A DNA stretch of 63,256 bases from a virus. The notes under the pieces are model-generated. The model was not told the DNA's origin. It saw only the letters and a program-made list of their open reading frames with translations, and did not search any database. The stretch spans positions 1-63,256 of the IMG/VR virus record IMGVR_UViG_3300038621_000255. One strand, 5' to 3'. How positions within the stretch are numbered: the first letter of the stretch is position 1; every line of letters starts with the position of its first letter. A program made the position numbers and the translations under genes. This document shows positions 3,138-55,049 of this stretch, piece by piece.

Positions 3138-3164
3138 CGACCTGGGCAAGTCGTTAAACTGCCC
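3138..3164 (+). promoter_or_regulatory. H-type pseudoknot leader element, copy 1
   Basis: Stem 1 is CGAC (3138-3141) with GTCG (3150-3153). Stem 2 is GGGCA (3144-3148, inside the stem 1 loop) with TGCCC (3160-3164). Connecting loops are 2, 1 and 6 nt, which is classic H-type geometry. About 18 nt later, after a conserved CAAGAGTAAA, comes the GGAGG of the next gene. Two further copies (44226-44252; 55049-55023 minus) keep the pairing through G-U exchanges. A cis-acting RNA controlling translation is likely (inference). Confidence 0.7.
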
Positions 3165-3192
3165 AACAAGAGTAAACCGACAGGAGGCAATT

Positions 3193-3429
3193 ATGCTACA
3201 AATTCTCAAAAAACAAGCGATCGAACCAGACCGTGACGTTTATCTAGTCGGAAACATCACTACACCTCGCCGCGATCGCGTCAGGGTATACAGCACTGGG
3301 GATACCCACAACTGCAGCTGCGATCGCTACAAGGATCACGGACATTGTTTTCACATCCGTTTTATTCGTGACTTTGAATCCGGTTTGGATGGGAGCTGTT
3401 GCCCCATTGATGCCGAGGATGAGTTCTAA
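3193..3429 (+). CDS. Small SWIM-type zinc-finger protein
   Basis: A 78-aa protein containing CSCDRYKDHGHCFH around residues 41-54. This fits the CxCx(n)CxH pattern of SWIM zinc fingers, which bind DNA or protein partners. A second Cys pair (SCCP) lies near the C-terminus. The ATG follows GGAGGCAATT. It is the second gene of a two-gene unit, preceded by the pseudoknot and closed by the terminator at 3448. A stand-alone SWIM motif this small is unusual. The motif is seen directly; its partner and role are unknown. Confidence 0.75.
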   Translation: MLQILKKQAIEPDRDVYLVGNITTPRRDRVRVYSTGDTHNCSCDRYKDHGHCFHIRFIRDFESGLDGSCCPIDAEDEF

Positions 3430-3447
3430 TTAATTGCAGACCCCAGT

Positions 3448-3483
3448 AAAAAGCCCCCTCAGCTTCCACTGAGGGGGCTTTTT
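3448..3483. terminator. Bidirectional terminator
   Basis: 15-bp perfect arms (3448-3462 and 3469-3483), GC-rich core, A5 and T5 at the ends. It lies between convergent genes. Confidence 0.9.
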
Positions 3484-4078
3484 ATTTTGCTAGTTCTAGG
3501 GCTTGGTGGTACTCGTGCGCGTGCTGCAGGAACCCCTGCCAGTACCGTTTCAGGTCTTTCCCCTCTACCTCCCAAACTTGGGATTCTTTAGAGGGTAGCA
3601 GGGTGATTATCTTTGCTTTACCTAGTTTCCACCCATAGAGCCAATTACAAGCGCCCAGGTAGGCTGCTGCTTGGTGGAAATCGCGTTGCATTTGGTACTT
3701 GGTGCGCGGCTTCTGGGTGGTTTTCCAATCTAATAAACACCACTCCTCACCTTGGATTTTGGCAACCAAGTCGGGTGTACCTGCGAAGCCGTGTTCTGGA
3801 TGAAATACGCTACTTTCCAATAGTGCGATCGCCTCTACCTTCTCTAGGTAGGGAAGCGCGGCGTAATAATAGGGGCTGTTAGCCAGGGTAAGTTTTGGAT
3901 GTCTCCCCTCTAGTTTTGCTTGGATTGCCCTATGTATTTCGATGCCACGCGCCAATCTACTTTCGCGATCGCATTTATTTTGTGGGTTTCGATTATTGAA
4001 AGGGGAAGGGAGAGCAGCGCTCAGAATTGCCGATACGCTAGGGTATCTCCCAACGTTGTTCCCTCGCGTGTCGGTTAT
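3482..4078 (-). CDS. RecB-like PD-(D/E)XK nuclease, start uncertain
   Basis: Contains GTPDLVAKI and LLDWKTT, the Asp and DxK of the PD-(D/E)XK nuclease fold, then QRDFHQAAAYL, as in RecB/Cas4-like exonucleases that process DNA ends. The nearest standard start is TTG at 3955. However, the frame stays open upstream and encodes GRYPSVSAIL, a motif common at the N-terminus of this family, so the protein should begin earlier. No ATG, GTG or TTG exists in that stretch. AGGAGG (4095-4090) precedes in-frame ATA at 4078. An ATG at 4104 is out of frame by one base across a G5 run. The gene has either a rare start codon or a frameshift. It is last in a leftward group with 4119 and 4558. Confidence 0.75.
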   Translation of the reverse strand: MTDTRGNNVGRYPSVSAILSAALPSPFNNRNPQNKCDRESRLARGIEIHRAIQAKLEGRHPKLTLANSPYYYAALPYLEKVEAIALLESSVFHPEHGFAGTPDLVAKIQGEEWCLLDWKTTQKPRTKYQMQRDFHQAAAYLGACNWLYGWKLGKAKIITLLPSKESQVWEVEGKDLKRYWQGFLQHAHEYHQALELAK

Positions 4079-4118
4079 AAGATAATGCCTCCTTTCCCCC
4101 TCATTGATTCGCTTTACC

Positions 4119-4556
4119 TTAATATAACCCCCTTTGTGTTTTCCGCACCGTGTAAGTCCTTCTGTCCTCTTCGTAGTAAACCCCTCCTAAAATTATCTGA
4201 CGGGTTACTTTCCCTTTTTGGTTGGTGTTTATCGCTTGGTAAATGTGCTGATCCTTTTCTACCGTCTTGACTTTTTGGAAGTCGCACCCCGTTATTGCTT
4301 CGGCTTCTTGTATCGTAGTCCCTGTTTCTAAGTTTTCAATCGATAGGGTTTTGATTCGTTCGTACATTGAAGCTGTTAACGTGGTTTGGCATACGTTAAT
4401 TGTTACAACTCTGCCATCTAATTCGTATCGATACTTTTCTTGCTTTTCCTGCTTCTCCGCATTCACGTTCGATGATGACGTGTTGCTATAACAGGTCGCC
4501 AACAAGGGGGTCAGTGCCACGCTTGCAGCTATCAAAAAATTTTTCCATTTAGCCAT
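4119..4556 (-). CDS. Hypothetical exported protein (145 aa)
   Basis: Begins with a basic residue pair and a hydrophobic stretch (KNFLIAASVALTPLLATC), a likely signal peptide. The Cys could be a lipidation site, although Thr before it is atypical. The mature part is polar with two further Cys and no recognised domain. ATG at 4556 follows GAGGAAAAG and starts 2 bases after the upstream stop, so it is translationally coupled to the ribbon-helix-helix gene. A lysogeny-related envelope protein is one possibility, but nothing in the sequence proves it. Confidence 0.7.
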   Translation of the reverse strand: MAKWKNFLIAASVALTPLLATCYSNTSSSNVNAEKQEKQEKYRYELDGRVVTINVCQTTLTASMYERIKTLSIENLETGTTIQEAEAITGCDFQKVKTVEKDQHIYQAINTNQKGKVTRQIILGGVYYEEDRRTYTVRKTQRGLY

Positions 4557-4557
4557 T

Positions 4558-4857
4558 TTACTTTTCCTCTTTAAGTTTGATTTCGAGTTCTTGTACTTTT
4601 CTGTTCAGTTGCCTGTTTTCCCTTGATAGACCTTCTAGTTGGGAATGCAGGGAAGATACTTCCTTTTGCAGCCCTTCTTTTTCCCAGTAGATATTTTGCA
4701 AGGGATTCTCCCGGCGGATCACCCACTCGTATAGGGCTTCCCTTACGAGAGAAGAAACCACAAGGGAATACTCTTGGGCGAATTTTTCCAACCGATACCA
4801 CAACCTAGTTGGTATCGTTATGTGCAGTTCTTTATTGAAATTTTCTGATTTGGACAT
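4558..4857 (-). CDS. Ribbon-helix-helix / coiled-coil protein
   Basis: A 99-aa protein. Residues 10-50 (ELHITIPTRLWYRLEKFAQE, then SSLVREALYEWV) match the beta strand plus two helices of CopG/Arc-type DNA-binding proteins. Residues 60-99 form a charged heptad-like coiled coil (SLHSQLEGLSRENRQLNRKV). Probably a dimeric DNA-binding regulator of its own leftward operon or of the divergent head operon at 4946. GGTGG precedes the ATG. The fold call is by eye and the target is unknown. Confidence 0.7.
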   Translation of the reverse strand: MSKSENFNKELHITIPTRLWYRLEKFAQEYSLVVSSLVREALYEWVIRRENPLQNIYWEKEGLQKEVSSLHSQLEGLSRENRQLNRKVQELEIKLKEEK

Positions 4858-4945
4858 AAACGATCCACCTCTATCTCTATTCTAGCTCCTTAACCCGGGA
4901 ATTGATAGGGAAAATTACAATAGAATTGATGGTATTTGGCTTTTT

Positions 4946-5692
4946 ATGGCGATTCCAAGAAGTATTATCAATCAACCCAACGAGTGGGCGAACTTCTTTA
5001 GAGGGAAAACAGAAGTACCCACCCAAGCTTGGCGCGATCTGAATCAAGAGGAATATGGTTTTTCTTTCGCGATTGCAGGCGTAACCAATTTACAATTCTT
5101 AAAAGAGGTAAGAGAACTTCTGCAAGAGGAGCTTGCCAAGCCCGAGGGTAGTTCGTTTCGGCAATTTCTAAAGAATTTCGACAAAGCGATCGCACGCAGG
5201 GGATGGGCTGGCGACAAGCCCTGGCGGCGGAAACTAATTTGGCATCAGAATACTCGGTCGGCTTATGCCCAGGGACGGTATCAACAGCAGGTACGCCCGG
5301 AGAGCTTACGGTTGCAGGGTGCTTGGCGTTGGGCACACAGGTGGCCGAAAAACCCAAGACCCGACCATATTGCCTTAGATGGGAAGCTCTATCCCCCTGG
5401 AACAACCGATTTTTCGGGGCAATCGTACCCACCCAATGGCTATTTTTTCTGCCATTGCGCGATTGTTACCGAATCCGCAGGTTCGGTGCGACGTAAGGGA
5501 TTTTCACCAATGAGTCCAGTGCAAAATCCCCCCAAACACCTACCGGGGCAAGACCCAGAGAGCCGCGATCGCATTGCCAATCAAATCGCCGAGAAGTTGC
5601 CACCCGATCTTAGGCAAAGTTTCACCCAATGGCGTGAGAAACGCCAACAATTCCTAGATAGGATTATGCAGAATATTGATGAGGAGGGTTAA
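4946..5692 (+). CDS. Mu F-like minor head protein
   Basis: A 248-aa protein with segments typical of the phage Mu F / SPP1 gp7 family: RKLIWHQNTRSAYAQGRYQQ, then RPDHIALDGKLYPP and CHCAIVTE. These minor head proteins bind the portal and are co-packaged or needed for procapsid assembly. It opens the rightward head-tail operon and is followed without a gap by a gpG-like gene, as in Mu. The matching portal gene is unusually distant (38.6 kb). Confidence 0.85.
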   Translation: MAIPRSIINQPNEWANFFRGKTEVPTQAWRDLNQEEYGFSFAIAGVTNLQFLKEVRELLQEELAKPEGSSFRQFLKNFDKAIARRGWAGDKPWRRKLIWHQNTRSAYAQGRYQQQVRPESLRLQGAWRWAHRWPKNPRPDHIALDGKLYPPGTTDFSGQSYPPNGYFFCHCAIVTESAGSVRRKGFSPMSPVQNPPKHLPGQDPESRDRIANQIAEKLPPDLRQSFTQWREKRQQFLDRIMQNIDEEG

Positions 5693-6088
5693 ATGGCATT
5701 CTCAGTAAGAATCAGCCGCGATGGTTTTGAAGAGCTAATCAATGCTATCGAAGATACCCAGCCCCTATTTCAAGCAATAGGACAAATGGCGGACCGGCGA
5801 CTGCAGGATACACAATCCGCAGGGCAGGATCCCTACGGAAGAACATGGGAACCATTAGCTACGGGGGAACCTAGCTTTTTGCGGCAAACTGGGGATCTGG
5901 AGAATTCCCGAAATTGGGAAGCCGGACAAGGCTACGCCCGTATAGGCTTTGGGGCACATTATGCAAAATTCCATCAAACCGGGACTTCTAAAATGCCTCG
6001 CCGCCGGTTGGTTCCCGACCGGGGACTACCTGGTGATTGGGACCAAGAAATTTCAGATTTAGCAGAGGAGTGGGTAAATGCAATTTAA
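5693..6088 (+). CDS. Mu gpG-like virion morphogenesis protein
   Basis: A 131-aa protein matching the phage virion morphogenesis (tail completion) family: QDPYGRTWEPL, LRQTGDLENS, IGFGAHYAKFHQTGT and PRRRLVP. These proteins act late in head or head-tail joining. The start directly abuts the upstream stop and the end overlaps the protease gene by 11 bases, indicating tight translational coupling. The order F-G-I-capsid is as in Mu. Confidence 0.85.
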   Translation: MAFSVRISRDGFEELINAIEDTQPLFQAIGQMADRRLQDTQSAGQDPYGRTWEPLATGEPSFLRQTGDLENSRNWEAGQGYARIGFGAHYAKFHQTGTSKMPRRRLVPDRGLPGDWDQEISDLAEEWVNAI

Positions 6089-7214
6089 TCTATTATCAGT
6101 TGGGCAAAAACAAGCGAACAGCGGGCAATCTATAGACATATCGCCAAGCCTTCTACAAGAGATCGTAGAGAGTTTCAAAGAGAGTAAGGGGCGCTTCCTT
6201 CCCCCTGTCATTGAAGGGCACCAAGGAGGGGATGACAGGGAACGTGGCGAGGGAATTGACGCACTTATACGAAATCTAGAATTTGATGGTCAATTTCTGA
6301 AAGGAGAATTCGGGCAAATCCAGGATAGGTTCTGGGAAGCGGTAAAGGGGGAAGGTGGCAATTTTACCCCTTACCTATCTTCACGAATCCTACCCCCCGA
6401 CCATCCCTACAACCCAAACCCGGGAAAGTGGAGCTTGGGGCATGTTGCCCGGGTAGGGCTTCCTGGCGATCCCCAATTGGGCTATCTATTTAATCAAAAG
6501 CAAGAGGATGGATCCATCTTGGCGCCGAATTATCCTTTAGATTTCGCCGAAGAAGGGCAAAAAGAAGGCAGCAACGAGGATCCAGGCGATAGAATAGAGG
6601 ACGATACTACTATAGCGATTAATATGCCAACAGAGTATCAACAACAGGAACAAAACTCCCAGCAACAACAAGAGGAAAAGCAGGATGAGGGGCAACAACA
6701 GCAATCCCAATCTGCCGACCTTTCCTCTTTGATGGAAAAAGTGAACAACCTTCTGCAACAGCAGGAGCAGCAACAACAAAAGTTATTAGATCGGATTTCT
6801 AAATTAGAAGAAAACGCCGCGCAACCTATCACCGATAGTAAACACGAACAGCAGCAACAACAGCAGGAGCAAAAGGAAGAGGCAGAAGCCCCTGATTTTT
6901 CCCAATTACAGGACCAGATCGAAACGCAGAATCGTGCAATCTGGTCTATGAGATTGTCGCCTTATTTCCAAAGCCAAGACCGGCTAAACAAAGAAATTAA
7001 TTACCTTTCCGGTCTGAACAAGGCTGCTAAAAATGGGATTGACTTTGGACAAGACCCCGTAGAATCCCGAATTCAAGAATTGATTGAATTTAATCAGGGA
7101 GTGCGGTTGGGGGAACCCGAGTCCCCTGCGGTTGACAAGGAAACCCAACAGGAAAAAAGCCCCTTGGAGAAAGCAAGGGAAGAAGCAAGGAAAAAGTATG
7201 AGGAGAAAAAGTAG
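6078..7214 (+). CDS. Head maturation protease with Gln-rich scaffold
   Basis: A 378-aa protein. The N-terminal ~150 residues resemble Mu protease I (PPVIEGHQGG, ALIRNLEFDGQFLKGEF, SRILPP, LGHVARVGLPGDP). Such proteases cleave scaffold and capsid during head maturation. The remaining half is Gln/Glu-rich and coiled-coil-like, as expected for an internal scaffold that is later removed. In Mu, I and Z are nested to give the same arrangement. An internal start giving a scaffold-only product is plausible but not visible here. The position just before cement and capsid genes supports the call. Confidence 0.8.
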   Translation: MQFNLLSVGQKQANSGQSIDISPSLLQEIVESFKESKGRFLPPVIEGHQGGDDRERGEGIDALIRNLEFDGQFLKGEFGQIQDRFWEAVKGEGGNFTPYLSSRILPPDHPYNPNPGKWSLGHVARVGLPGDPQLGYLFNQKQEDGSILAPNYPLDFAEEGQKEGSNEDPGDRIEDDTTIAINMPTEYQQQEQNSQQQQEEKQDEGQQQQSQSADLSSLMEKVNNLLQQQEQQQQKLLDRISKLEENAAQPITDSKHEQQQQQQEQKEEAEAPDFSQLQDQIETQNRAIWSMRLSPYFQSQDRLNKEINYLSGLNKAAKNGIDFGQDPVESRIQELIEFNQGVRLGEPESPAVDKETQQEKSPLEKAREEARKKYEEKK

Positions 7215-7703
7215 ATGACCCTAGATCTCTATTTAAAACAGGGCTATGAAGGTAGACCCGGCCTTCTAGATCCCACAGCCCGACAACAATCCGTAAGAAA
7301 TGAAAGCGGCTCAAGCATTGCCCCGGGTCGTTTGTGCGTGGTAACTGGCGGCTCGGATATTCCGACCGTAAAATTGATTTCAGCGTCAAGCGATCACCCC
7401 TTGGGAATAACTCTGAATACCACAATGGCTGGTGACATCGATGTTGCCCTGCCTGACGCTGATGTTGGGACGGTGCTTTACCGGGGTCCGATTTATGTAG
7501 TACCCGAGGTAGCTGTCGATCCTTCCGACCCGGTATACGTACGCCACACATCCCACAGCTCACCGGGCACTTACGATGCGATTGGGCGATTCAGGAACGA
7601 TGCTGATACGGATGGATCGGACACTGCAATGGAATTACCGAAGTGCCGATGGATTAGCGCATCAGCGGCGGGTGGTCTAGCAATTTTAGAATTCGCACTG
7701 TAA
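7215..7703 (+). CDS. Head structural cement / decoration protein
   Basis: A 162-aa Gly/Asp-rich beta protein. VRNESGSSIAPGRLCVV, then DHPLGITLN and GRFRNDADTD resemble small capsid cement proteins encoded directly before the major capsid gene. It would stabilise the expanded shell. It starts at an ATG immediately after the protease stop. The family call comes mainly from position and composition. Confidence 0.7.
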   Translation: MTLDLYLKQGYEGRPGLLDPTARQQSVRNESGSSIAPGRLCVVTGGSDIPTVKLISASSDHPLGITLNTTMAGDIDVALPDADVGTVLYRGPIYVVPEVAVDPSDPVYVRHTSHSSPGTYDAIGRFRNDADTDGSDTAMELPKCRWISASAAGGLAILEFAL

Positions 7704-7726
7704 TAGATAATAAGTAAGGAGAATTA

Positions 7727-8677
7727 ATGGCTACAAAAGCTTTTATTGACGAACAGTTAGAGCTATCTTTAAGCCGTGTAATACAGCAACCTTACCCAGC
7801 TTTAAGGTACGAGAATGGGGAGTTTATTCCCACAATGGCAGACCTGGATCTGGGCGTTAGCCGGATTTCGCAAAGAGTATTAGATGAAGCCGGCCAGGCT
7901 GCATTCTGGGGCGGCGAAGGGGGACAAATACCCGTCGCCGATATTTCAGTAAGTGAACGGACCTATCCCGTGCGGGCAGTCGCTGCTGGCTATCGGGTAA
8001 GCGAAAAAGAAATTGCAGAAGCCGAGCGTGCTAGGAGAAACGGGGAATTGGATATTCCCTTGGGACAGCGCAAAGCCATGATGGCGGCGAGGGCAATCGC
8101 TGAAAAGGTTGACAGCATCGTAGCTTATGGCGAACCGGGTCAGAACTTTACTGGTTTCCTAAGCGATCCTGGTGTAGAGGTAGTGGATTCTTCTTTCGAC
8201 TTTTATAATACTGCCAATACGGCACAAGAGCAGCAAACCGCCATCTTTGAATTCTTCCAGGATCAAATTAGTACGGTAATTGGTAAAGTAGAGCGACTTT
8301 TCCAGCCCACTCACGTACTCCTGCCTCTAGATGTATTTAATCGTTTAAATATTGCCACCATAGATGCGAACAATATTCTGCTGGAAGTACTGCAACGACA
8401 GCTCGCCCCTTATGGCATACAAACAATCACGTGGGATAATCGTCTAAACGCCCAGCAATTATTTGACGCAGGGGTGCGGGGAGACGCAAACAAGGATCGC
8501 CTCGTCTTTTATACACGAAGCCCCGAGGTAATCGAACGCCATACAGGTGTATTGCAGCAAGCTGAGCGGGAACGTTCCAATATGCAGGAATTCGTGCCCT
8601 ACTACCAGGTGATTAGCCCACCGCAGTTCCATTATCCCGAAACTGCGTTGTATGTAGACGTGCCGGTCAAATCCTAA
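7727..8677 (+). CDS. Major capsid protein
   Basis: A 316-aa protein after AAGGAGAATTA. Segments such as VAAGYRVSEKEIAEAERARR, VDSIVAYGEPG, TGFLSDPGVEV and FYTRSPEVIERHTG match the DUF2184-type HK97-fold phage major capsid proteins. It forms the icosahedral shell. It follows the protease/scaffold and cement genes in the expected order. There is no sign of frameshift. Confidence 0.88.
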   Translation: MATKAFIDEQLELSLSRVIQQPYPALRYENGEFIPTMADLDLGVSRISQRVLDEAGQAAFWGGEGGQIPVADISVSERTYPVRAVAAGYRVSEKEIAEAERARRNGELDIPLGQRKAMMAARAIAEKVDSIVAYGEPGQNFTGFLSDPGVEVVDSSFDFYNTANTAQEQQTAIFEFFQDQISTVIGKVERLFQPTHVLLPLDVFNRLNIATIDANNILLEVLQRQLAPYGIQTITWDNRLNAQQLFDAGVRGDANKDRLVFYTRSPEVIERHTGVLQQAERERSNMQEFVPYYQVISPPQFHYPETALYVDVPVKS

Positions 8678-8692
8678 TATAGGTGAGCAGAA

Positions 8693-8953
8693 ATGAAGAT
8701 TTGGTTCTACCCCGAACGACAGCAGCCAATCGCCCGGCAAGCACCTTACACGCTCGATAGCGTGCGGTTAGTGCCGGGGGAAAATAACCTTTCCGAGAAT
8801 CAATACAAGCAGGTAAGCGACCTCGAAGCCTACCAGCAATTGCTGGAGCAAGGGGCTGTTGTCGAAGAGGAAGGAAAGAAACAACAGAAAAGAAAAAGAA
8901 CTTCCCAGCAGCAACAGCAGGAGGTAACCAGTGAGACTAAGAGCGAAACGTAG
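8693..8953 (+). CDS. Hypothetical head-region protein (86 aa)
   Basis: Short protein with a folded-looking N-terminal part and a Lys/Gln-rich tail (KKQQKRKRTSQQQQQ). It lies between the capsid and the connector genes and overlaps the next gene by 23 bases. AGGTGAGCAGAA precedes the ATG. Probably a minor head or neck protein by position; not recognised. Confidence 0.65.
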   Translation: MKIWFYPERQQPIARQAPYTLDSVRLVPGENNLSENQYKQVSDLEAYQQLLEQGAVVEEEGKKQQKRKRTSQQQQQEVTSETKSET

Positions 8954-9314: not shown

Positions 9315-9317
9315 AGG

Positions 9318-18879: not shown

Positions 18880-19200
18880 AACGCCTCTGCCAGATCTACC
18901 TAAAATCCCCTCTGTGTGGAGATTACAGCAAATATTACAGGATATATTACCCGATCTAGTAATACTGTAATAAAATCCAAAATCTGCATGGTTGAGGGAT
19001 TACAGCGATCCGCATAAACCCGGTTCGTAATACCCTAGAATAAACCCCATTTTGCTCCCTAATCTCCTGTACGTGGTGGTTCCAGCGTTTTTACCTTCTA
19101 AAATTGCTGGAATATTATATTTATTACAGTGGTTGTAGCCCCTCTAAAATCTCCTGTGTGTGGAGATTATGGGTTATTCTATTTTTTATTACGGGTAGTT
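18880..19200. repeat. AT-rich palindrome block II
   Basis: Non-coding block holding a 104-bp unit (18910-19013) that is the exact reverse complement of 43693-43796, plus further boxes such as tctcctgtgtgtggagatta at 19151-19170. It separates the virion operon from the replication region. No gene is seen here. Confidence 0.8.
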
Positions 19201-43384: not shown

Positions 43385-43840
43385 ATCTCAATTTTATCAC
43401 CCTTGCCGCTGTAATAATTAGGCATAAATCGGTGTAATCTCCACCAACAGGGAATTATACGGTTTTGGATAGAATTTAGCCAGATTTTTATTACAGCTTT
43501 TATTATAGCCCCATAATATGCCTACAATCTCCACACAGAGCAGATCTCAGCAGGTCTTTCTCCGGTCGGGATAAAGCCATAATAAAAATTATATTACAGT
43601 CCTTCACCCCTGCAAAATCCCTAAAATCTCCTGTACGTCTGGATTCCAGGCTAATTACAAGGGGTCGCAGCAAAAATTACAACCGGGTCTACGCGGATCG
43701 CTGTAATCCCTCAACCATGCAGATTTTGGATTTTATTACAGTATTACTAGATCGGGTAATATATCCTGTAATATTTGCTGTAATCTCCACACAGAGCGAA
43801 TTTTGACCCTATTTGAATATACTATTGTATACTGTGTTAC
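43385..43840. repeat. AT-rich palindrome block III
   Basis: Non-coding. It contains the exact inverse of the 104-bp unit of block II at 43693-43796, many TGTAAT/ATTACA boxes and tctccacacagag motifs. It ends at a TGTATACTGTGTTAC motif (43827-43841) that recurs at other blocks. 43842-43976 is otherwise empty apart from a short inverted repeat (gggatacc/ggtatcc). Confidence 0.8.
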
Positions 43841-43976
43841 GAAATTTCGTTGTTAGTACCGGCATAAAAATAGGGATACCCAATTCTAGGGAATAGGTAT
43901 CCTTGTGGTTTAACTACCTTTAACCACCCTTTCGCCCTCTTATCTGTGGCATTTCAGAATTTATTTTAGAAACTGG

Positions 43977-44006
43977 TTGACAATATCTAGAGGGTTGTGT
44001 CACTAT
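43977..44006 (+). promoter_or_regulatory. Promoter of the shared TTGACA family
   Basis: TTGACA 43977-43982, 18-bp spacer, CACTAT 44001-44006, then AAAAATAGTTAG. Drives 44053 and the CAAD/clamp-loader genes. Confidence 0.75.
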
Positions 44007-44052
44007 AAAAATAGTTAGTTCATTCAGCAGAGTAGACCGACGAGGTAAATAC

Positions 44053-44217
44053 ATGCACAATCAACGCAAAATAAAGGTTTCCCTAGATGCCCTGGAACAA
44101 ATATCGGAAGTGTATCCGGAATATGTCGCCCAGGTTCTACAGGAAGTGGCAAATATAGATGGGTCTCAAGTAGATGAAATTTTACGGTGGCTAGAATCAG
44201 AATCAGAAGAAAAGTAA
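44053..44217 (+). CDS. Small acidic protein (54 aa)
   Basis: ATG after GACGAGGTAAATAC and a family promoter. The product is helical and acidic (VSLDALEQISEVYPEYVAQV, ending LESESEEK), possibly an adaptor or inhibitor. It is followed by a pseudoknot element and the CAAD-domain gene in the same unit. Unrecognised, but expression signals are strong. Confidence 0.7.
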   Translation: MHNQRKIKVSLDALEQISEVYPEYVAQVLQEVANIDGSQVDEILRWLESESEEK

Positions 44218-44225
44218 AACCTTAC

Positions 44226-44252
44226 CGACCTGGGTAAGTCGTTAAAGTGCCC
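44226..44252 (+). promoter_or_regulatory. H-type pseudoknot leader element, copy 2
   Basis: CGAC (44226-44229) with GTCG (44238-44241); GGGTA (44232-44236) with TGCCC (44248-44252). The U-G pair replaces the C-G pair of copy 1. Followed by CAAGAGTAAA and GGAGGCAA of the CAAD gene. Confidence 0.7.
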
Positions 44253-44286
44253 TGCAACAAGAGTAAATGCACTGGAGGCAAACACC

Positions 44287-44895
44287 ATGACTACAACAAC
44301 AGAACAAACCCAAAACGACTTAGAAATCGCCACTGTTTTTATTAACGGTGAATCCAGCCTGGGGTTCGAAGACGATAACCTTGGATCCGATGCTGTACAG
44401 GCTTCGGCTGCCGAGGTCAATGAGCAACCTGATTGGAAACAAGAAAATCTTGAGCCAGGGGATGTTCTAGATCTCTCTGACGGTCTCGTCAGAGTTGACG
44501 ATCAACTCGACTTTGTAAACCCCGACAAGGAAGACGAACAGCAGGAGCAAGGAGAACAACAGGAGCAAACGTCCACAGAACAAGATACCGTTCAGGAAGA
44601 ACAGCAAGAGCGAAACGACAGTCAAGAAAGCAAGGGTATCAAACAAAAACTTGCCAGCATTCCCCACAAACGGCTAAAAGTAGCTATTTTAGCCTCCGCA
44701 GCTGTTGCGGTTTGGGGGACCGTCTACTCCGTCTTTACAACCCCATTTCCTTCCCTCTTGTTCGATGTCGTGGGGATTGGGTCTGCCATATGGTTCATCT
44801 ATCGGTATCTCTCGACTGCAGAGGGTCGGGAAAATTTGGAAAATGACTTACATCGTATTTGGAAACGAGTCTGGGATTGGGTACTTAACTACTAA
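44287..44895 (+). CDS. CAAD/CURT1-like membrane protein
   Basis: 202 aa. Residues 1-125 are acidic and Gln/Glu-rich, probably disordered. Residues ~128-200 have two membrane segments (VAILASAAVAVWGTVYSVF; LLFDVVGIGSAIWFIYRYL) followed by an amphipathic helix (EGRENLENDLHRIWKRV). The pattern P-x-L-F-x-x-V-G-x-G-x-x-x-W-F-x-Y-R-Y-L matches the CAAD domain. That domain is known from cyanobacterial aminoacyl-tRNA synthetases and CURT1 thylakoid-curvature proteins. A phage copy would place the protein in thylakoid or plasma membrane. It is co-transcribed with clamp-loader genes. The domain call is good; the role is unknown. Confidence 0.75.
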   Translation: MTTTTEQTQNDLEIATVFINGESSLGFEDDNLGSDAVQASAAEVNEQPDWKQENLEPGDVLDLSDGLVRVDDQLDFVNPDKEDEQQEQGEQQEQTSTEQDTVQEEQQERNDSQESKGIKQKLASIPHKRLKVAILASAAVAVWGTVYSVFTTPFPSLLFDVVGIGSAIWFIYRYLSTAEGRENLENDLHRIWKRVWDWVLNY

Positions 44896-47785: not shown

Positions 47786-47803
47786 GAACAATAAGGAGAT
47801 ATT

Positions 47804-48511: not shown

Positions 48512-48560
48512 TAGAATTAGGGATAGATAGGAACTTGTTGGGATGGTGTAACACTGCCTT

Positions 48561-48587: not shown

Positions 48588-49470
48588 AGTAGTTCTGGAC
48601 CAACACTTCGCCAACTTCGCCGCGATCGCTACCCTTAGAATTTATCGACCTGCGTACTTCTAAAGGGTAGATATTGAAATCTTGGTATAGTTCCCTAATC
48701 AAGGGGCAATCCGAGTTTGAGAGTAGGAATTTTGCGCCTTTTCGGTCTATTTCCTGGCAAAACCTGGCAACTTCCCTTTGCATTTCATCGCCCCATTTTT
48801 CGTTGCCTACGTAGGAAGTGTGCGATCCTTCCGTTCGCTTGGGGTAAGGTGGATCTAGGTATACAAAATCCCCACTCGAAACCGATTCTATAATCTCCCT
48901 GAAATCACAGTTCCAGACGGTGCAGTCCTTATGGTTGAGAACTTCAGAGAGAGATAGAATCAAATTTTGATTGTAAAGATTTACCTTTTCGTAGTGTCCC
49001 CATGGGGCATTAAAATTACCTTGCAAATTCTCTCGCCACAACCCATTGAAACAAATACGGTTGAGAAATACCGCACGGACTGCTCTTACAAGTTTGCGGT
49101 CGGAAGGGTGGTTATTGAATAAATCGCGCGTAGAATAGTAAAGGTACTCTTTGAGATCCACCGCGGCATTGTTGTATTTTTTCTCCAATTCTCCCAAGTA
49201 GTGGGCTAATAAATCGGGCTGGTCCCTCACTACCTCTAATACTTCGATTGGTACCCGGTTCGTATCACTCCCCACTCTTTTCCGGTTTGGGAAGTACCTT
49301 GCCATTTCCCAAAATAGTGCCCCACCTCCTAGGAAGGGTTCCCAGTAGGTTTGAAATTCCTTGGGCAAGTGACTCCAAAGGGTGGACAGAATTTGTCTTT
49401 TCCCACCTGCCCACTTCAGAATGGGCTGTGGCTTCGTTTGGTTTCCAATATCTAGCTCTAGTTGCTGCAT
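48586..49470 (-). CDS. dam: DNA adenine methylase (Dam-like)
   Basis: 294 aa. D12-class N6-adenine methyltransferase motifs are PILKWAGGKRQILSTL (motif X/I), PFLGGGALFWEM, FNAPWGHYEK and DPPYPKRTEGSHTSY (motif IV). This class usually methylates GATC, the centre of HIP1 octamers, so the phage DNA may be protected or marked. The N-terminus MQQLELDIG looks like a sliding-clamp-binding peptide. It is transcribed alone, divergent from the RuvC-like gene. Confidence 0.9.
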   Translation of the reverse strand: MQQLELDIGNQTKPQPILKWAGGKRQILSTLWSHLPKEFQTYWEPFLGGGALFWEMARYFPNRKRVGSDTNRVPIEVLEVVRDQPDLLAHYLGELEKKYNNAAVDLKEYLYYSTRDLFNNHPSDRKLVRAVRAVFLNRICFNGLWRENLQGNFNAPWGHYEKVNLYNQNLILSLSEVLNHKDCTVWNCDFREIIESVSSGDFVYLDPPYPKRTEGSHTSYVGNEKWGDEMQREVARFCQEIDRKGAKFLLSNSDCPLIRELYQDFNIYPLEVRRSINSKGSDRGEVGEVLVQNY

Positions 49471-49482
49471 TCTATAAAGCCA

Positions 49483-49511
49483 TTTACAATAACCATCAAT
49501 TCTACTATACT
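49483..49511 (+). promoter_or_regulatory. Promoter of the resolvase gene
   Basis: TTTACA 49483-49488, 17-bp spacer, TATACT 49506-49511. Near-consensus sigma-70 type, without the AATAG downstream element. Confidence 0.7.
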
Positions 49512-49550
49512 AGTTTCTAGTAGGAAAAGCAAACAGTAGGAGGCATTATC

Positions 49551-50042
49551 TTGCTATTTCCATTAGTGGGTATCGACCCGGGCAAGCAGGGGGCGATAGC
49601 GCTTGCAACCTCACCCTATAGGGTGATTATCGCTGATTTCCCTTTACTACAAGGACAGCCCGACCGGGAAAAATTATACTCCTTTTCTGCCCTCGCTCGT
49701 GGTGGAATAGCTTGGATAGAAACCCCGCAGTTTCGCCCAAGCGATATGCGCAGAAACATATTTTCCGCTGGCACTTTCTACGAGTGCTGGCAATTCCCCT
49801 TAATTCTGCATGGATGTTCCATTGCAGAGGTGCCGGCAAGCACTTGGAAGCGAGAAATGGGTCTTTTTGGTACGGGAAAAGATGGGGCGATCGCACTCGC
49901 CAAACAAATCTTTCCCACGGCAAATCCCTATCTGCAAAGAAAAAAAGACCATGACCGTGCAGAAGCTCTATTAATCTTGAGATACGCGCTGATACAGGAA
50001 GGAGGAGAGCTTGGTAAAGAAATCTCTATGGATTTGTATTAG
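49551..50042 (+). CDS. RuvC-like Holliday junction resolvase
   Basis: 163 aa starting at TTG after AGGAGGCATTATC. GIDPGKQGAIAL (first Asp), WIETP (Glu) and the C-terminal KKDHDRAEALLILRYAL (last acidic pair) reproduce the RuvC/RNase H-like catalytic tetrad. It resolves branched DNA from replication or recombination before packaging. It sits in its own unit between two terminators. Confidence 0.88.
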   Translation: MLFPLVGIDPGKQGAIALATSPYRVIIADFPLLQGQPDREKLYSFSALARGGIAWIETPQFRPSDMRRNIFSAGTFYECWQFPLILHGCSIAEVPASTWKREMGLFGTGKDGAIALAKQIFPTANPYLQRKKDHDRAEALLILRYALIQEGGELGKEISMDLY

Positions 50043-50161
50043 GTTAAGTTTGGGATTCCTTCTGTGCCATCCACAACCGCAATCACCAGATCAAAGCCCA
50101 CCACCCGGATCGGGAAGAGAGGATCGTCAAATGATAACAAGGGTAAACTAAAGAAGATTCT

Positions 50162-50190
50162 AGCCCTGGTAGCAAGTACCAGGGCTTTTT
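50162..50190. terminator. Terminator between convergent genes
   Basis: AGCCCTGGTA (50162-50171) with TACCAGGGCT (50177-50186), then TTTT. Confidence 0.88.
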
Positions 50191-50569
50191 AGTAGGGGTA
50201 GTCGTTCGATTGAAATTCCTTCAACTCTTCAACCGGGAGGTTGAAGAACTTCGCAAGCATCTCTATCTCAGCATCTAGTAGATTTTGCTCCGAAATTTCG
50301 CGGTTACGTATCGCCAGTAATCGCTCTTCGGGGATTCCGGTGTGAGAAGCGATCCTGCGAATTTTCCCATAATTTCTTGGCAGCAAATCTCCTATCTTGC
50401 GGTCACAATCTAAGGGCAATAGCTCTCCGTGTTTCTGATAGTGAATCAAGTCGGCACGCAATAACGCCTCGATTCTTTCGCTTTGAAACTGAGAATCCGG
50501 CAGGGCTAGCTGGTGATATTTCCTGAGCAGGGAGGGAAGGGCAATATTGATTCGGTGAGAATAATCCAA
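50189..50569 (-). CDS. Putative HTH protein (126 aa)
   Basis: Residues ~68-118 (NYGKIRRIASHTGIPEERLL, then EIEMLAKFFNLPVEELKEF) have the helix pattern of Cro/C1-type domains. The N-terminal half is helical. The start is a TTG without a clear ribosome binding site. It faces away from the GTAAC array and the gene at 50771, a layout common for regulator pairs. It could be a lysogeny repressor; direct evidence is lacking. Confidence 0.6.
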   Translation of the reverse strand: MDYSHRINIALPSLLRKYHQLALPDSQFQSERIEALLRADLIHYQKHGELLPLDCDRKIGDLLPRNYGKIRRIASHTGIPEERLLAIRNREISEQNLLDAEIEMLAKFFNLPVEELKEFQSNDYPY

Positions 50570-50662
50570 AGGGTTTTCTAGAGCGCTTCAATCGCCTATT
50601 CTAGCGCCTTGCGTACCCTTTCTGTAAAATTATAGAGATGTTATGTCTTTGAAGGCTTGACA

Positions 50663-50971
50663 GGTTACTAAGGTTACAGGTAACCTAAAAAGGTAACCGT
50701 AAGAAATGCAGAGGTAACTCAAGGTAACTTACGGTAACCTTAAGTAACTATTGGAAAAGGAGAGTAACTGATGGATAGGATTCAGGATATGCAAGATTTT
50801 CAACAAATTAAGGATAATCCAGGTAACCCCTGGGTAACCGGCAGGGAAACCGATTCAGGTAACGAACATGTAACCCCATACGTAACCTCTGAAGGTTACC
50901 AACGTAACCAAGATGAGGTTACGGATACAGAAGAAACAAAAGAAACCAAGGAAGAGGGAGAAAACGTAACC
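50663..50971. repeat. GTAAC/GTTAC array, 18 copies
   Basis: 18 copies of GTAAC or GTTAC (most as GGTAAC or GGTTAC) in about 310 bases. Nine are upstream and nine inside the first 70 codons of the gene at 50771. They start right after a TTGACA (50657-50662). Spacing is irregular and orientation is mixed. Candidate operator, partition or origin array bound by the HTH protein encoded there (inference). Confidence 0.8.
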
Positions 50972-51589
50972 TCTGATGGTAGGGATGAATTTGAACCTAC
51001 CGAGCCAATCACCCAAAAAGAACTGGCCCAGAAATTAGGAGTCAAGCGCCCCTATGTGGGGAAAATCCTAGGAGAATTGAAGAAGTATTTTCCCGAAAAT
51101 GAACTCTACGAGGGGCGTAAGCTATCTGTATTCGCCCAAGAACAGATCCTAGATTACAGATCCCTAGGGGCTAGCGCCTATCGCAAAGAGATGGAAAAAG
51201 CATCTAACAATGACAGTGATGCCGGAGGTGCTATCGAATTGCAAAAACCAGAAATGCAGAAACCGAATATTCCTAACGTAGAGCCGGATATCCTACCCAA
51301 ACAAAACTGGAATGCGGAAAAGATTGTAGATTGCTTCAGCCGCGCCCAGCTGGCAAAACAACAAGGGGCAAACGCACTCCAAGGTGCAATTGACAGCAAG
51401 GTTTCCACCCAAAGAAACTGGCAGACTTTCCAAGAAACAGAATTACGAGATACTTTCGCCCAAGGATGGGAACAGGGAGCAAGGAAAGCCCAAGCATACG
51501 CAGCGGGTGAAGAAGCTGCCTTCCAACAGTTCCTTCAGCAGATGGGGAAGTCATTTCAAAACGAAAATTCCCAATCGGAATCGGAATAG
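50771..51589 (+). CDS. HTH protein encoded within the GTAAC array
   Basis: 272 aa, ATG after AAAGGAGAGTAACTG. The first ~75 residues are Thr/Glu-rich and probably disordered. Residues ~78-125 (ITQKELAQKLGVKRPYVGKI, then YEGRKLSVFAQEQILDYRS) form a helix-turn-helix followed by a wing-like segment. The C-terminal half has Gln/Ala-rich helices. Half of the GTAAC copies lie in its own coding sequence, so autoregulation or a partition/replication complex is likely. Its stop overlaps the next GTG start. Not a recognised ParB or Rep family. Confidence 0.7.
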   Translation: MDRIQDMQDFQQIKDNPGNPWVTGRETDSGNEHVTPYVTSEGYQRNQDEVTDTEETKETKEEGENVTSDGRDEFEPTEPITQKELAQKLGVKRPYVGKILGELKKYFPENELYEGRKLSVFAQEQILDYRSLGASAYRKEMEKASNNDSDAGGAIELQKPEMQKPNIPNVEPDILPKQNWNAEKIVDCFSRAQLAKQQGANALQGAIDSKVSTQRNWQTFQETELRDTFAQGWEQGARKAQAYAAGEEAAFQQFLQQMGKSFQNENSQSESE

Positions 51590-52032
51590 TGTTGACTGCC
51601 CTGGCAATTGCCAACCTTTCTGCGCTTGCGGAATATCTTGGTAAATACGAACAGAAGCGCGACGCGGCTTTGGCAAGTCAAACTGCACAATCCCGCTACG
51701 AGAATGGCTGCGTATTTGTAAAGGCGATCGCATCCGACGGTAAACCAGCATCGCTAATCCCCAACACCCCCGTTATTGATAGGAGTAGTGCAGGGTTTTT
51801 CCCAGCCGGGACGACGGTATGCGATATTTATGGCAACACTGGGCGGATCCAGGTAAAAGAACTCGAATACCGCTACCTCTCCCCAAACGGGCGTTTTCAA
51901 TATCCCAAAGGGGCAAAAATCCCGGTGATTGACCCGGCTTCCTTGGCTTATACAGGAACTCCCCCACACAAAAAAATACCCGATGGCGCCCCCATTGGGT
52001 ATATAGGACGTATCTCTAATATCCAAAGATAA
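51589..52032 (+). CDS. Hypothetical protein with N-terminal hydrophobic segment
   Basis: 147 aa from GTG overlapping the upstream stop (TAGTG). The first ~17 residues (LTALAIANLSALAEYL) could be a signal or membrane anchor. The rest is a beta-rich polar domain with two Cys (NGCVFVKAIASDGKP, GTTVCDIYGNTGRIQV). It belongs to the unit leading to the membrane ATPase. Family unknown. Confidence 0.65.
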   Translation: MLTALAIANLSALAEYLGKYEQKRDAALASQTAQSRYENGCVFVKAIASDGKPASLIPNTPVIDRSSAGFFPAGTTVCDIYGNTGRIQVKELEYRYLSPNGRFQYPKGAKIPVIDPASLAYTGTPPHKKIPDGAPIGYIGRISNIQR

Positions 52033-52036
52033 TTTC

Positions 52037-52067
52037 AAACCATCACGGACTCAACCCGTGATGGTTT
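52037..52067. terminator. Hairpin, possible attenuator
   Basis: 12-bp perfect arms (52037-52048, 52056-52067) with a 7-base loop. No U tract, and AGGAGG of the next gene follows 4 bases later. It may act as an RNA processing or translation-control hairpin. Confidence 0.5.
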
Positions 52068-52086
52068 ACTAGGAGGTGAGAACAAT

Positions 52087-52626
52087 ATGCAAGTAGTCGA
52101 TGCCGAGCGTGTTGGTTCTGGTGAAAGCAAGGCCAGCACGTCTGCAAATAATAGCACCCAAAGTGCGCTTAAAAGTTTCTTCAAGAATAAACGCACTATC
52201 AAAGCCGTCCTCATTGTGAGCCTATCCTTTTTACTAGGTTTGGTTTGGGTCTTGAATTGTCAACCATACTTAAGTGCTGCTGAAAATCTATGGGGTATAG
52301 CAGCCTCAAGAAATACGAACAGCGGCGTGATAGGAAACCTTGTCTTTGCTTCAGTTATAACCCAATGGTTGTGGACACTCTTTGGAATCTTCCTGTGCGT
52401 TGGGTTGCAGTTGCTCGAATTCCTGCCAGCTCTAAATTGGAATATTAGCAGGAAAAAGGCACGCGTAGCTCGTATGGCTAGCTATGTGGTTGACCTAATT
52501 GTGCTTTGGTCGGTCTACCCAATTTCTAGCCTTCCCCTCAATTGGTGGCACTTGATTCTAATGGTTTTAGCTTTGATAGCTGTTGAGATGGTGTTTTATC
52601 CCCTTGCACTTATTAAAGATTCTTAA
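52087..52626 (+). CDS. Multi-spanning membrane protein (179 aa)
   Basis: Four hydrophobic segments: AVLIVSLSFLLGLVWVL (~40-57), VITQWLWTLFGIFLCVGLQL (~91-110), VVDLIVLWSVYPISSL (~133-148) and LILMVLALIAVEMVFYPLAL (~155-174). A polar N-terminal tail of ~35 residues precedes them. Strong GGAGGTGAG. It ends 10 bases before the membrane ATPase gene and may form a complex with it. No known family. Confidence 0.75.
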   Translation: MQVVDAERVGSGESKASTSANNSTQSALKSFFKNKRTIKAVLIVSLSFLLGLVWVLNCQPYLSAAENLWGIAASRNTNSGVIGNLVFASVITQWLWTLFGIFLCVGLQLLEFLPALNWNISRKKARVARMASYVVDLIVLWSVYPISSLPLNWWHLILMVLALIAVEMVFYPLALIKDS

Positions 52627-52636
52627 GGAGATTCTC

Positions 52637-53932
52637 ATGGATTTATTTAGGCCTAACGACTGGCGCTCTCACGAGTGGAAATCGGCAATCGAACCCCACA
52701 CAAACCCTTTCAAGGCACTAGCGGTTTTTGTTCTGGGTATCGTTTTAGGGTTTTTCGTAAACTTCCTACTTGGTCCCTTATTTGGGATTGTGGTAGGAGG
52801 TAGCCTTGTTGCTTGGGCATTCGTTATTGAGTGGAAACTTGGGAGTGCCGAAGATGGTGTATTAACGGACGGGGTTATCGCCCCCTTTATCAAGCACAAA
52901 GCCGATTTCCATCAATACCTCAGAGGTGTAGGAAAAGAGCGCGTGAGGGCTGAGATAGAACAGGCATTGGAAGACGGGCACGAAATATCCCCTTTTGCCC
53001 AAAATTGGTATAACGCAGATAAGAAGGGTAAACCTACCATTTCGGAAACTTCCCCTCTGCAACGTTTGAGGGAAGTTCCGGAAAAACCAACAGAGAAGCG
53101 TTCGTCGCCCACTCCACGACAACCCAAGGAAAATACCGGACCGCAAAAAGAGGAGGAGGACAACAACGGCAAGGAAGAGAGAGAGGAAGAAGAAGACATA
53201 AATCCTTTTTGGGAAATTCCCTACGCGCAATTGGTTATTTTGGCAGGGATGCAAGGATCGGGAAAGACAACCACCTTGGCGGCAATTATAGAGCAGAAAC
53301 TTAAACAGCAGGCTTTTGTTTTGGTTTGCGATCCCTTCTACTCAGCTGGTAAGCACTTCGGCCTTCCCGTAGTTGGGCGTGACCCAGAAAACCGGTTTAC
53401 AGATATATCAGCCGCCATGGAGTGGTTTGGGCAAATTGTCGAAGGAAGGTTGGTTAAGCAGGCAAAGTTTGAGAACTACGATCCCGTCGCCGACGATGTT
53501 CATATCTGCTTGGTTGTGGACGAGTTTACAAACCTTAGCAATAGTTTGGAGCCAACTGTATTGGCAAAACTCTGGGACGACAGTTTACAAACGTTGCGAA
53601 GATTGAATTTAAGCGTAATCCTTGCCACCCACAACCTACGCATCCCCGGTCTTGGCGGACAAAAGGCAGTTGCCTCAAAAACCGAGGCAATTTCCAACCA
53701 ATCAATGCAGTTCAAGTTACAAACAAAAATCAACAGAAATCGACAACCAGGGGAATCACCAAAAATCCCAGCAGGTAAGGCTAAGTTTAAACGCGAAGGG
53801 GAAGATGATTTCTACGAAGTAAAAGTACCAGAGGATTTTAAACCCTCCAATTTGAATTTTGATTTCCGGCACCTAACTGGGAAAGAAAAACACCCCAATT
53901 GGCGTAAAGAAGTAGGCTTAGAAAATCAGTAA
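52637..53932 (+). CDS. Membrane-anchored P-loop ATPase (HerA/FtsK/VirD4-like)
   Basis: 431 aa from the ATG after AAGGAGATTCTC. Two membrane segments (AVFVLGIVLGFFVNFLL; GPLFGIVVGGSLVAWAFVI) lie at residues ~25-62. A charged linker follows (KEEEDNNGKEEREEEEDINP). Then come Walker A AGMQGSGKTTT (~203) and Walker B HICLVVDEF (~290), plus VILATHNLRIPG, a sensor-like strand. The layout is that of membrane-anchored DNA translocases and coupling proteins. It might act in partition, conjugal transfer or DNA entry. Specificity is unknown; the ATPase call is firm. Confidence 0.75.
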   Translation: MDLFRPNDWRSHEWKSAIEPHTNPFKALAVFVLGIVLGFFVNFLLGPLFGIVVGGSLVAWAFVIEWKLGSAEDGVLTDGVIAPFIKHKADFHQYLRGVGKERVRAEIEQALEDGHEISPFAQNWYNADKKGKPTISETSPLQRLREVPEKPTEKRSSPTPRQPKENTGPQKEEEDNNGKEEREEEEDINPFWEIPYAQLVILAGMQGSGKTTTLAAIIEQKLKQQAFVLVCDPFYSAGKHFGLPVVGRDPENRFTDISAAMEWFGQIVEGRLVKQAKFENYDPVADDVHICLVVDEFTNLSNSLEPTVLAKLWDDSLQTLRRLNLSVILATHNLRIPGLGGQKAVASKTEAISNQSMQFKLQTKINRNRQPGESPKIPAGKAKFKREGEDDFYEVKVPEDFKPSNLNFDFRHLTGKEKHPNWRKEVGLENQ

Positions 53933-53944
53933 AAGGAGTACAAG

Positions 53945-54202
53945 ATGGCATTACAACGCACCTTGAAACAAAAGCGCGATCTAGTAATCGGTGGTATACT
54001 CCGAACCTTACGATATGAGGGATTTACAACCAACCAAAAAATACTAGATCGATTAATAAAGAAGATCCAACCAAAGGACTTTTCCAAGGATAAATGGGTT
54101 GGCATAGAGACAAAGAAAAAGGGAAGAAAAAACTACCTGGTAATTAATTTCTTTAAAGGGGATGAAGTAATTAAATCCCAAAAAATGGAGATTCGCAAAT
54201 AA
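53945..54202 (+). CDS. Small basic protein (85 aa)
   Basis: Lys/Arg-rich protein (TLKQKRDLVIGGILRTLRYE, ETKKKGRKNYLVINFFK), probably nucleic-acid-binding. GGAGTACAAG precedes the ATG. Overlaps the next start by one base. Together with the ATPase it suggests a DNA-handling unit. Not recognised. Confidence 0.65.
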   Translation: MALQRTLKQKRDLVIGGILRTLRYEGFTTNQKILDRLIKKIQPKDFSKDKWVGIETKKKGRKNYLVINFFKGDEVIKSQKMEIRK

Positions 54203-54651
54203 TGGCTAGTGGTAAAATACACGAAAGGATTAATCTCTTTGGGTCAATAATAGCAGTAAGTGCCGTTGGTGCGATCGCCAAAGAACCTATCTTAGGATTG
54301 CTAGTGGGTGCCGGAACCCTAGTTGGCACCTACCTCCTTAGTCCCGATCTAGATTGCCGGGGCGCTTTTCACGCAAAATCCTGGTGGCGTTGGCATCGGA
54401 TCGGGTTGGGGTGGTATTGGTCGCTCTACGCCCAAACAATTCCCCACCACCGGCACTGGCTCAGTCACTCGATTGTAATAAGTACAGCGTATCGGGTTCT
54501 ATGGTTGGCGATTCCCCTGGCTGCAATACTATATGCTCTGCCCTTAGAAATTGACCCCAACGCAATCATCACCACCCATTGGAGATTCTTCGCTGCTTTC
54601 TACGGTGGGTTAGAATTATCTACAATCTTGCACTTACTGATGGACCTCTAA
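54202..54651 (+). CDS. DUF2227-like metal-binding membrane protein
   Basis: 149 aa. ASGKIHERINLFGSI, YLLSPDLDCRG, and HHRHWLSHSIVI match a family of cyanobacterial membrane proteins with a His-rich site (DUF2227). Several hydrophobic segments lie between. Function of the family is unknown; a metal-dependent hydrolase similar to YdjM has been proposed. Last gene of the module, closed by the terminator at 54656. Confidence 0.75.
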   Translation: MASGKIHERINLFGSIIAVSAVGAIAKEPILGLLVGAGTLVGTYLLSPDLDCRGAFHAKSWWRWHRIGLGWYWSLYAQTIPHHRHWLSHSIVISTAYRVLWLAIPLAAILYALPLEIDPNAIITTHWRFFAAFYGGLELSTILHLLMDL

Positions 54652-54655
54652 AAGT

Positions 54656-54683
54656 AGCAACCCCGTCCACGGACGGGGTTGCT
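54656..54683. terminator. Terminator hairpin
   Basis: 13-bp perfect arms (54656-54668, 54671-54683), then TACTAAATCTTTTT. Confidence 0.75.
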
Positions 54684-54773
54684 TACTAAATCTTTTTAGC
54701 AATGACGGTAGCGACCCGAAGCAATAAGGCTGCTAGGAAACAACCCAATGCGATCACCACATCGCCACAAGGA

Positions 54774-54995
54774 TTAAAATCGTGAGTACATTCTTAGGTA
54801 TCTTTCCGCCAGGCTGTACCACCCTGGTAATGATATATATGGGGCTATATCATTTTGGAAGTGTCGGGGATTATCCTCTTCAAGGATGTCTTGAAGGATA
54901 AATACTAATTTGTTTACCCTTTCCTCGGGGTAAAGGGTGGAATCCATCAAAAGGGATTCCGTTGCGCTTTTAATTTGTTTTGCGGTTTCCTGCAT
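54774..54995 (-). CDS. Small hypothetical protein (73 aa)
   Basis: Helical, acidic protein (KQIKSATESLLMDSTLYPEE, RVNKLVFILQDILEED). ATG follows TTGGAGGCAAGTGA, and pseudoknot copy 3 lies upstream in the same arrangement as in the other two units. Second gene of the leftward unit from the promoter at 55435. No known family. Confidence 0.7.
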   Translation of the reverse strand: MQETAKQIKSATESLLMDSTLYPEERVNKLVFILQDILEEDNPRHFQNDIAPYISLPGWYSLAERYLRMYSRF

Positions 54996-55022
54996 TCACT
55001 TGCCTCCAATTTATTCTTGTGT

Positions 55023-55049
55023 AGGCACTTTAACGACTTGCCCAGGTCG
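55023..55049 (-). promoter_or_regulatory. H-type pseudoknot leader element, copy 3
   Basis: On the minus strand: CGAC (55049-55046) with GTCG (55037-55034); GGGCA (55043-55039) with TGCCT (55027-55023), where a G-U pair replaces G-C. Then ACAAGAATAAA and GGAGGCAAG of the gene at 54995. Confidence 0.7.

Follow-up and report, generated by a model that had tools for sequence, protein, structure and literature searches.

Three Pseudoknots in One Viral Record

What is the role of a small RNA pseudoknot that a single virus carries three times, each time between two neighbouring genes? The question is raised by the IMG/VR virus record IMGVR_UViG_3300038621_000255, positions 1 to 63,256, here called the window (the whole 63,256-nt stretch of DNA that was analysed), whose genes include a terminase, tail sheath, tape measure and clamp loader. 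A first-pass annotation, made from the letters alone, had described three 27-nt H-type pseudoknots and proposed that they were a new translation-control element or riboswitch in the leader of the downstream gene. The pseudoknot belongs to a genuine conserved RNA family spread over phages, and its position is tied to the upstream gene, not to the downstream one. Its role is probably that of a 3′-end stabiliser, located just past the upstream gene's stop codon and protecting cut RNA from 3′-to-5′ trimming.

The three copies lie at exactly the places and on the strands that had been given for them:

3138..3164, plus strand: copy 1, with stem 1 (S1) at 3138-3141/3150-3153, loop 1 (L1) at 3142-3143, stem 2 (S2) at 3144-3148/3160-3164, the spacer at 3149 and loop 3 (L3) at 3154-3159
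44226..44252, plus strand: copy 2, with one S2 pair changed from C-G to U-G and G as the last L3 base
55023..55049, minus strand: copy 3, with G-U as the outer S2 pair and G as the last L3 base

The observation of three H-type pseudoknots is confirmed, and their parts are as first described: S1 is CGAC/GTCG, S2 is GGGYA/TGCCY, and the loops of 2, 1 and 6 nt read CT (L1), A (spacer) and TTAAAS (L3). The stem differences, C-G to U-G in copy 2 and G-C to G-U in copy 3, are indeed neutral with respect to pairing. One further difference had been left out, namely that L3 ends in C in copy 1 but in G in the other two; in the wider family, C occupies this position in about 94% of the copies. The three-copy motif had no match in 100 dinucleotide shuffles of the window, even with three mismatches, and a relaxed pseudoknot scan of the window revealed no fourth member, chance structures being about as many as in reversed controls. 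Vienna energies, which are from nested folding and leave the knot itself unmodelled, were −3.5 to −3.6 kcal/mol for S1 alone and −4.9 to −7.5 kcal/mol for S2 alone.

A Conserved RNA Family

A scan of viral contigs with the loop-core pattern picked out 15 stretches, and nearly every one of them could be extended to the full motif. Two converse scans were then run to avoid circularity, one with the loop letters fixed and the other with the stems fixed. The loop-only scan, which specified the loop letters and three fixed pairs and left the other stem positions free, gave at least 114 non-redundant matches. Among the 114 listed, the free stem positions pair 113, 110, 111 and 103 times, compared with 61.7, 55.0, 93.3 and 77.0 expected from column composition, and S1 shows compensatory swaps (A-U 74 and U-A 37; G-C 61 and C-G 40). 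The covariation score of 49 sequences, window copies included, was 0.520, versus 0.200 for shuffles and 0.03-0.11 for slid partners. Conversely, among the 93 matches listed for the stem-only scan, L1 is CT in 77 and CC in 7 (84/93) and L3 is NNNAAAC in about 86, while the spacer base can be any letter. The stem-fixed pattern with a 6-nt L3 had few matches, and the five of seven with CT and AAAC represent a short-L3 variant.

The resulting consensus is S1 (3-5 bp) - CY - S2 (5 bp, RRGYA/UGCYY) - N - S1′ - NNNAAAC - S2′. A combined descriptor found 331 copies in the fetched loci (272 once near-duplicates were removed) and none in reversed sequence; as these loci had been chosen by seed patterns, the 331 gauges specificity rather than abundance, and more copies exist than were counted here. 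Stem pairing is kept throughout the family, and its two crossing stems, backed by compensatory changes, are those of an H-type pseudoknot. The window copies are mutually close (96-97% identity over 26-29 nt), as copies of a mobile repeat would be. Nevertheless, a mobile repeat or chance similarity without RNA function is scarcely conceivable in view of the compensatory changes across unrelated phages, the 331 copies versus none in controls and the fixed spacing to the stop codon described below; for the family, the covariation tests exclude it.

No family in Rfam 15 covers the motif, whether gathering or E-value thresholds are applied to the window and copy 1. The claimed mismatch to the glutamine and preQ1 riboswitches was also upheld, since no riboswitch matched the window at E ≤ 5 or copy 1 at E ≤ 10; the families whose covariance models found no match include glutamine, preQ1, SAM and guanidine. 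A literature search on the motif sequence and on phage stop-codon pseudoknots, which did not extend to the 2017 motif paper by Weinberg, turned up no description of it, and within this limit the family is apparently undescribed so far. The small size of the motif, a nested part of just 3-5 pairs and the fact that pseudoknots are unmodelled could explain why covariance-model surveys have missed it.

The family is carried by phages with annotated hosts as different as Moorella, Cellulosimicrobium, Acaryochloris, Pasteurella, Lactobacillus, Staphylococcus, Anoxybacillus, Roseobacter, Celeribacter, Lentibacter, Cylindrospermopsis, Synechococcus, Bacillus, Arthrobacter, Corynebacterium and Streptococcus, some of these examples being judged solely by BLAST match and sequence inspection. 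Further carriers are one crAss-like phage, one microvirus and one phage-like Staphylococcus plasmid. A pattern scan of genome contigs gave about a chance number of matches, yet two were true ones (Tolypothrix, L033, and Gracilibacteria, L028). The latter contig, 4.6 kb long and assigned to Candidatus Gracilibacteria, has three copies and is probably viral. One motif variant had no match in Escherichia coli genomes, although a blastn query of 30 nt says little about true absence.

Spacing to the Upstream Stop Codon

Among the 272 non-redundant copies, the distance from the stop codon to S1 is mostly 6-11 nt, with a mode of 6, and is never below 5 (5 nt in 5 copies, 6 nt in 34, 7 nt in 22, 8 nt in 10, 9 nt in 18, 10 nt in 21 and 11 nt in 10). 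In 183 of the 272 copies, the motif has the end of an open frame of 60 codons or more within 40 nt on its 5′ side, compared with 53 on the opposite strand and 13% of random same-strand positions, and another 40 copies stand behind shorter frames (25-59 codons). Just one copy is located inside a frame. The motif is thus found directly 3′ of a reading frame and outside coding sequence, which is the place of a 3′ stabiliser. A dense array is found in contig L261 (1379-5219), where eight copies within 6.3 kb follow nearly every small gene, most of them 6-10 nt past successive stops. The window spacings of 16, 8 and 13 nt fit broadly, copies 1 and 3 lying in the tail of the distribution and off its peak.

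Such spacing might instead mean that the knot abuts the terminating ribosome and alters termination, readthrough, recycling or re-initiation at the next gene. A distance of 6-10 nt is similar to that of frameshift and readthrough pseudoknots, the minimum of 5 nt agrees with it, and frames with an in-phase stop in L3 are somewhat under-represented. However, readthrough would lengthen the protein by a median of just about 6-17 codons, the upstream frames end in any of the three stop codons (TAA 109, TAG 52, TGA 22), a second in-frame stop occurs in the spacer between stop codon and knot in some copies, and the tRNAs and ribozymes that follow certain copies are left unexplained. On balance, a ribosome-linked role is unlikely. 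Stop-codon readthrough in particular was rejected, as no systematic long in-frame extension past the stop was detected.

What Follows the Motif

On the 3′ side, the spacing to the next start codon is broad and the next feature varies between a gene, a tRNA and a hammerhead ribozyme. Fourteen same-strand tRNA genes start 3-14 nt after a motif (0.12 expected), with none on the opposite strand. Of the three hammerhead-like sequences present across all loci, two are positioned for a cut 6 and 8 nt past a motif. In Arthrobacter phage Amigo, the motif follows the ssb gene and precedes tRNA-Gly; in S-CRM01, one copy is found directly before tRNA-Asp; and in the crAss-like phage cr7_1, the motif stands about 4 nt ahead of what is, judged by acceptor-stem pairing, the likely mature 5′ end of a permuted tmRNA. 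Where a tRNA or ribozyme is just 3′ of the motif, the knot would end up, after cutting by RNase P or the ribozyme, near the 3′ end of the upstream RNA, and within a few nt of it in the tRNA, hammerhead, Amigo, S-CRM01 and cr7_1 cases. The window copies are followed by neither tRNA nor ribozyme.

Several other RNA elements occur in the same loci. The permuted tmRNA of cr7_1 (NC_055895; RF04321, 66.4 bits, L306 2160-2395) has the motif between its two halves. Viral contig L249 has one motif copy 7 nt before tRNA-Ala, together with a ROOL RNA and over 20 tRNA genes. Pistol ribozymes at L042 2094-2163 and L235 3084-3142 are situated a few hundred nt upstream of a motif copy, and that of L042 starts right where a coding sequence ends.

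These neighbours bear on the possibility that the knot is a transcription element or processing signal, acting on RNA polymerase (pause, termination or antitermination) or recruiting a nuclease. U-runs are present after some copies, and the tRNA, tmRNA and hammerhead neighbours link the motif with processing. On the other hand, no U-run follows most copies, including all three in the window; RNase P and hammerhead ribozymes require no outside signal; and tight spacing to a stop codon is unexpected for a polymerase signal. Such a role appears slightly less probable still than the ribosome-linked one.

The flanking genes bear on the leader proposed in the first-pass annotation, in which the knot would be a riboswitch, or a protein operator like the T4 gene 32 pseudoknot, controlling translation of the downstream gene. 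In compact genomes, a start codon is often found 10-40 nt past the end of the motif, the head operons of Gram-positive phages hold it at the scaffold gene, and in S-CRM01 it precedes gene 32, where T4, T2 and RB69 have an autoregulatory pseudoknot (PMC3014915). Nonetheless, the sharp spacing is that to the upstream stop and not that to the downstream start, and no alternative Shine-Dalgarno pairing was seen in the copies read, which were not checked systematically. Downstream proteins (n = 112) are mixed, comprising primases, nucleases, methyltransferases and scaffolds with no family above four, and tRNAs and hammerheads take the same place, so that the consistent downstream function of a riboswitch is absent. 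Recurrent families are shown more by the upstream genes: by raw counts, DUF932 accounts for 16 of 132 upstream proteins, which also include several major capsid proteins (PHROG 1357, 544, 334 and 1328), Hsp20 and single-stranded DNA-binding protein (SSB). Capsid protein and SSB are needed in quantity. Of the first-pass hypothesis, the genuine conserved H-type pseudoknot RNA, new to Rfam and with strong covariation, stands; the leader or riboswitch of the downstream gene is not supported, given that the upstream stop is the fixed point and the downstream feature varies, and as a general role it is improbable.

A Proposed 3′-End Stabiliser

Protection of the upstream message is the reading favoured here. 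What was observed is the fold and how well it is conserved, its spacing to the stop codon and, for some copies, processing signals immediately on their 3′ side. According to this model, a polycistronic phage RNA would be cut just 3′ of the knot, by RNase P at a tRNA or by a hammerhead ribozyme, and elsewhere a host or phage endonuclease would make that cut. The knot would then arrest 3′-to-5′ exonucleases ahead of the stop codon and reading frame, and the upstream message would thereby stay translatable. The minimum spacing of 5-6 nt may be about the closest that lets the knot persist folded beside a terminating ribosome. Cutting where neither tRNA nor ribozyme follows (the window included), the exonuclease block and a gain in expression are inferred parts of this process.

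Several observations weigh against the stabiliser. For about one-third of the copies, no frame of 60 codons or more has its end within 40 nt, contig L141 has the motif between tRNA genes, and in the head operons of Gram-positive phages it stays with the scaffold gene that follows, at varying distances from the annotated gene upstream. Moreover, 8-9 bp provide modest stability unless the A-rich loop and the CY loop form triples. A leader role is not favoured overall, but some copies may have one, as suggested by the head operons, L141, the frame-less third and the gene 32 site of S-CRM01.

A more general form of the stabiliser is conceivable, if somewhat short of probable: a 26-nt, triplex-strengthened knot that mechanically blocks 3′-to-5′ exonucleases directly behind stop codons in phages of many bacterial phyla. 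It would serve dsDNA tailed phages, crAss-like phages, microviruses and phage-like plasmids alike and, often in combination with cutting by RNase P or a ribozyme, would convert long transcripts into stable mRNAs of gene length. If the proposed function is true, the motif is a widespread regulatory RNA of phages and provides a common rule by which gene-by-gene expression is set after transcription. The presence of tRNAs and ribozymes behind certain phage genes would be explained as well, and a 26-nt part would become available for stabilising mRNAs in bacteria.

Genes around the Window Copies

The genes and sequence blocks next to the three copies are as follows:

2543..3121, plus strand: gene upstream of copy 1, about 192 aa (start inferred), with no Pfam or PHROG match; 16 nt separate its stop from the knot
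3167..3176, plus strand: CAAGAGTAAA block directly 3′ of copy 1
3193..3429, plus strand: gene downstream of copy 1, 78 aa and rich in Cys and His, preceded by GGAGG at 3183-3187
44053..44217, plus strand: gene upstream of copy 2, 54 aa; 8 nt separate its stop from the knot
44258..44267, plus strand: CAAGAGTAAA block 3′ of copy 2
44287..44895, plus strand: gene downstream of copy 2, 202 aa, with a C-terminal CAAD domain (PF14159, E 1.8e-9)
55063..55368, minus strand: gene upstream of copy 3, 101 aa; 13 nt separate its stop from the knot
55010..55019, minus strand: CAAGAATAAA block 3′ of copy 3
54774..54995, minus strand: gene downstream of copy 3, 73 aa

Each copy does lie between the first and second gene of a unit, and the common promoter type suggested for these units is supported by promoter-like repeats at 2455-2513, 43958-44016 and 55392-55460. 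CAAGARTAAA followed by GGAGG, noted earlier behind each copy, was found at just these three places in the window; the block could be a cutting or processing site or simply part of the leader of the ribosome-binding site. For the first genes of the units with copies 1 and 3, no relatives were detected. By eye, a terminator-like hairpin is present near 3447-3482, after the gene downstream of copy 1, and HIP1-like GCGATCGC sites occur near that copy. The CAAD domain of the phage gene at 44287-44895, directly 3′ of copy 2, is a cyanobacterial domain of aminoacyl-tRNA synthetases; together with the HIP1-like sites, this protein suggests a cyanobacterial host.

Other features of the record include a group I intron (RF00028, 86.1 bits) at 62929-63178, near the record end. 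A 205-nt block is repeated at 58564-58768, 59476-59680 and 60560-60764 (89-96% alike), in each case followed by a similar promoter-like stretch (58796, 59707 and 60791), and has a weaker copy at 2234-2438. There is also an inverted repeat of 124 nt, 97% complementary, at 18902-19025 and 43681-43804, and many shorter relatives of it (TCTCCACACAGAG...) are spread across the record.

Comparison with Known Systems

The nearest Rfam family is GP20-b (RF03003), which is named for its place before phage GP20 (scaffold-type) genes and was reportedly defined in the 2017 motif survey by Weinberg. The present motif also occurs before GP20-type genes in Staphylococcus, Lactobacillus, Streptococcus and Anoxybacillus phages, and by our own reading the GP20-b consensus can be drawn as a similar knot (S1 GuC/GgC, S2 ccgca/ugcgg and a 7-nt A-rich L3). 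It differs in having a 3-nt L1, no spacer and a second hairpin. The GP20-b model scored at best 20.5 bits (Lj771) and 11 (B236) on the motif, short of the gathering score of 36.2, and had no match in the window, where its second hairpin (GGuGA...CaCC) and UAAAAAAGCgUA tail are absent 3′ of the copies; hairpin-like sequences follow the motif just in some Gram-positive phage copies. The GP20-b consensus, in turn, found no clear match in phages and plasmids, Streptococcus phage PH15 being at most a weak look-alike.

The gene 32 pseudoknot of T4, T2 and RB69 is an autoregulatory leader operator for gp32 (PMC3014915). It is likewise an intergenic H-type pseudoknot of phages, and S-CRM01 has the present motif before gene 32. 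Unlike that operator, which belongs to the leader of a single-stranded DNA-binding gene, the motif is found beside many unrelated genes and is spaced to the upstream stop.

REP elements, such as that of malEF, are intercistronic hairpins proposed to shield the upstream message from 3′ exonucleases. The motif resembles them as an intercistronic structure behind a gene, but it is a small, phage-borne pseudoknot with conserved loops and a near-fixed distance to the stop codon. The xrRNAs of plant and animal RNA viruses are compact pseudoknotted folds thought to halt a 5′-to-3′ exonuclease mechanically. The motif may be likened to them in its fold, as a compact pseudoknot supposed to block an exonuclease, with the difference that it would need to stop 3′-to-5′ enzymes.

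Finally, phage hammerhead ribozymes have been proposed to cut long transcripts into gene-length mRNAs (PMC3088659). The link to the present family is direct, in that two motif copies are located immediately 5′ of a hammerhead cleavage site. The motif itself is no ribozyme, and its role would be to cap the 5′ cleavage product at its 3′ end.

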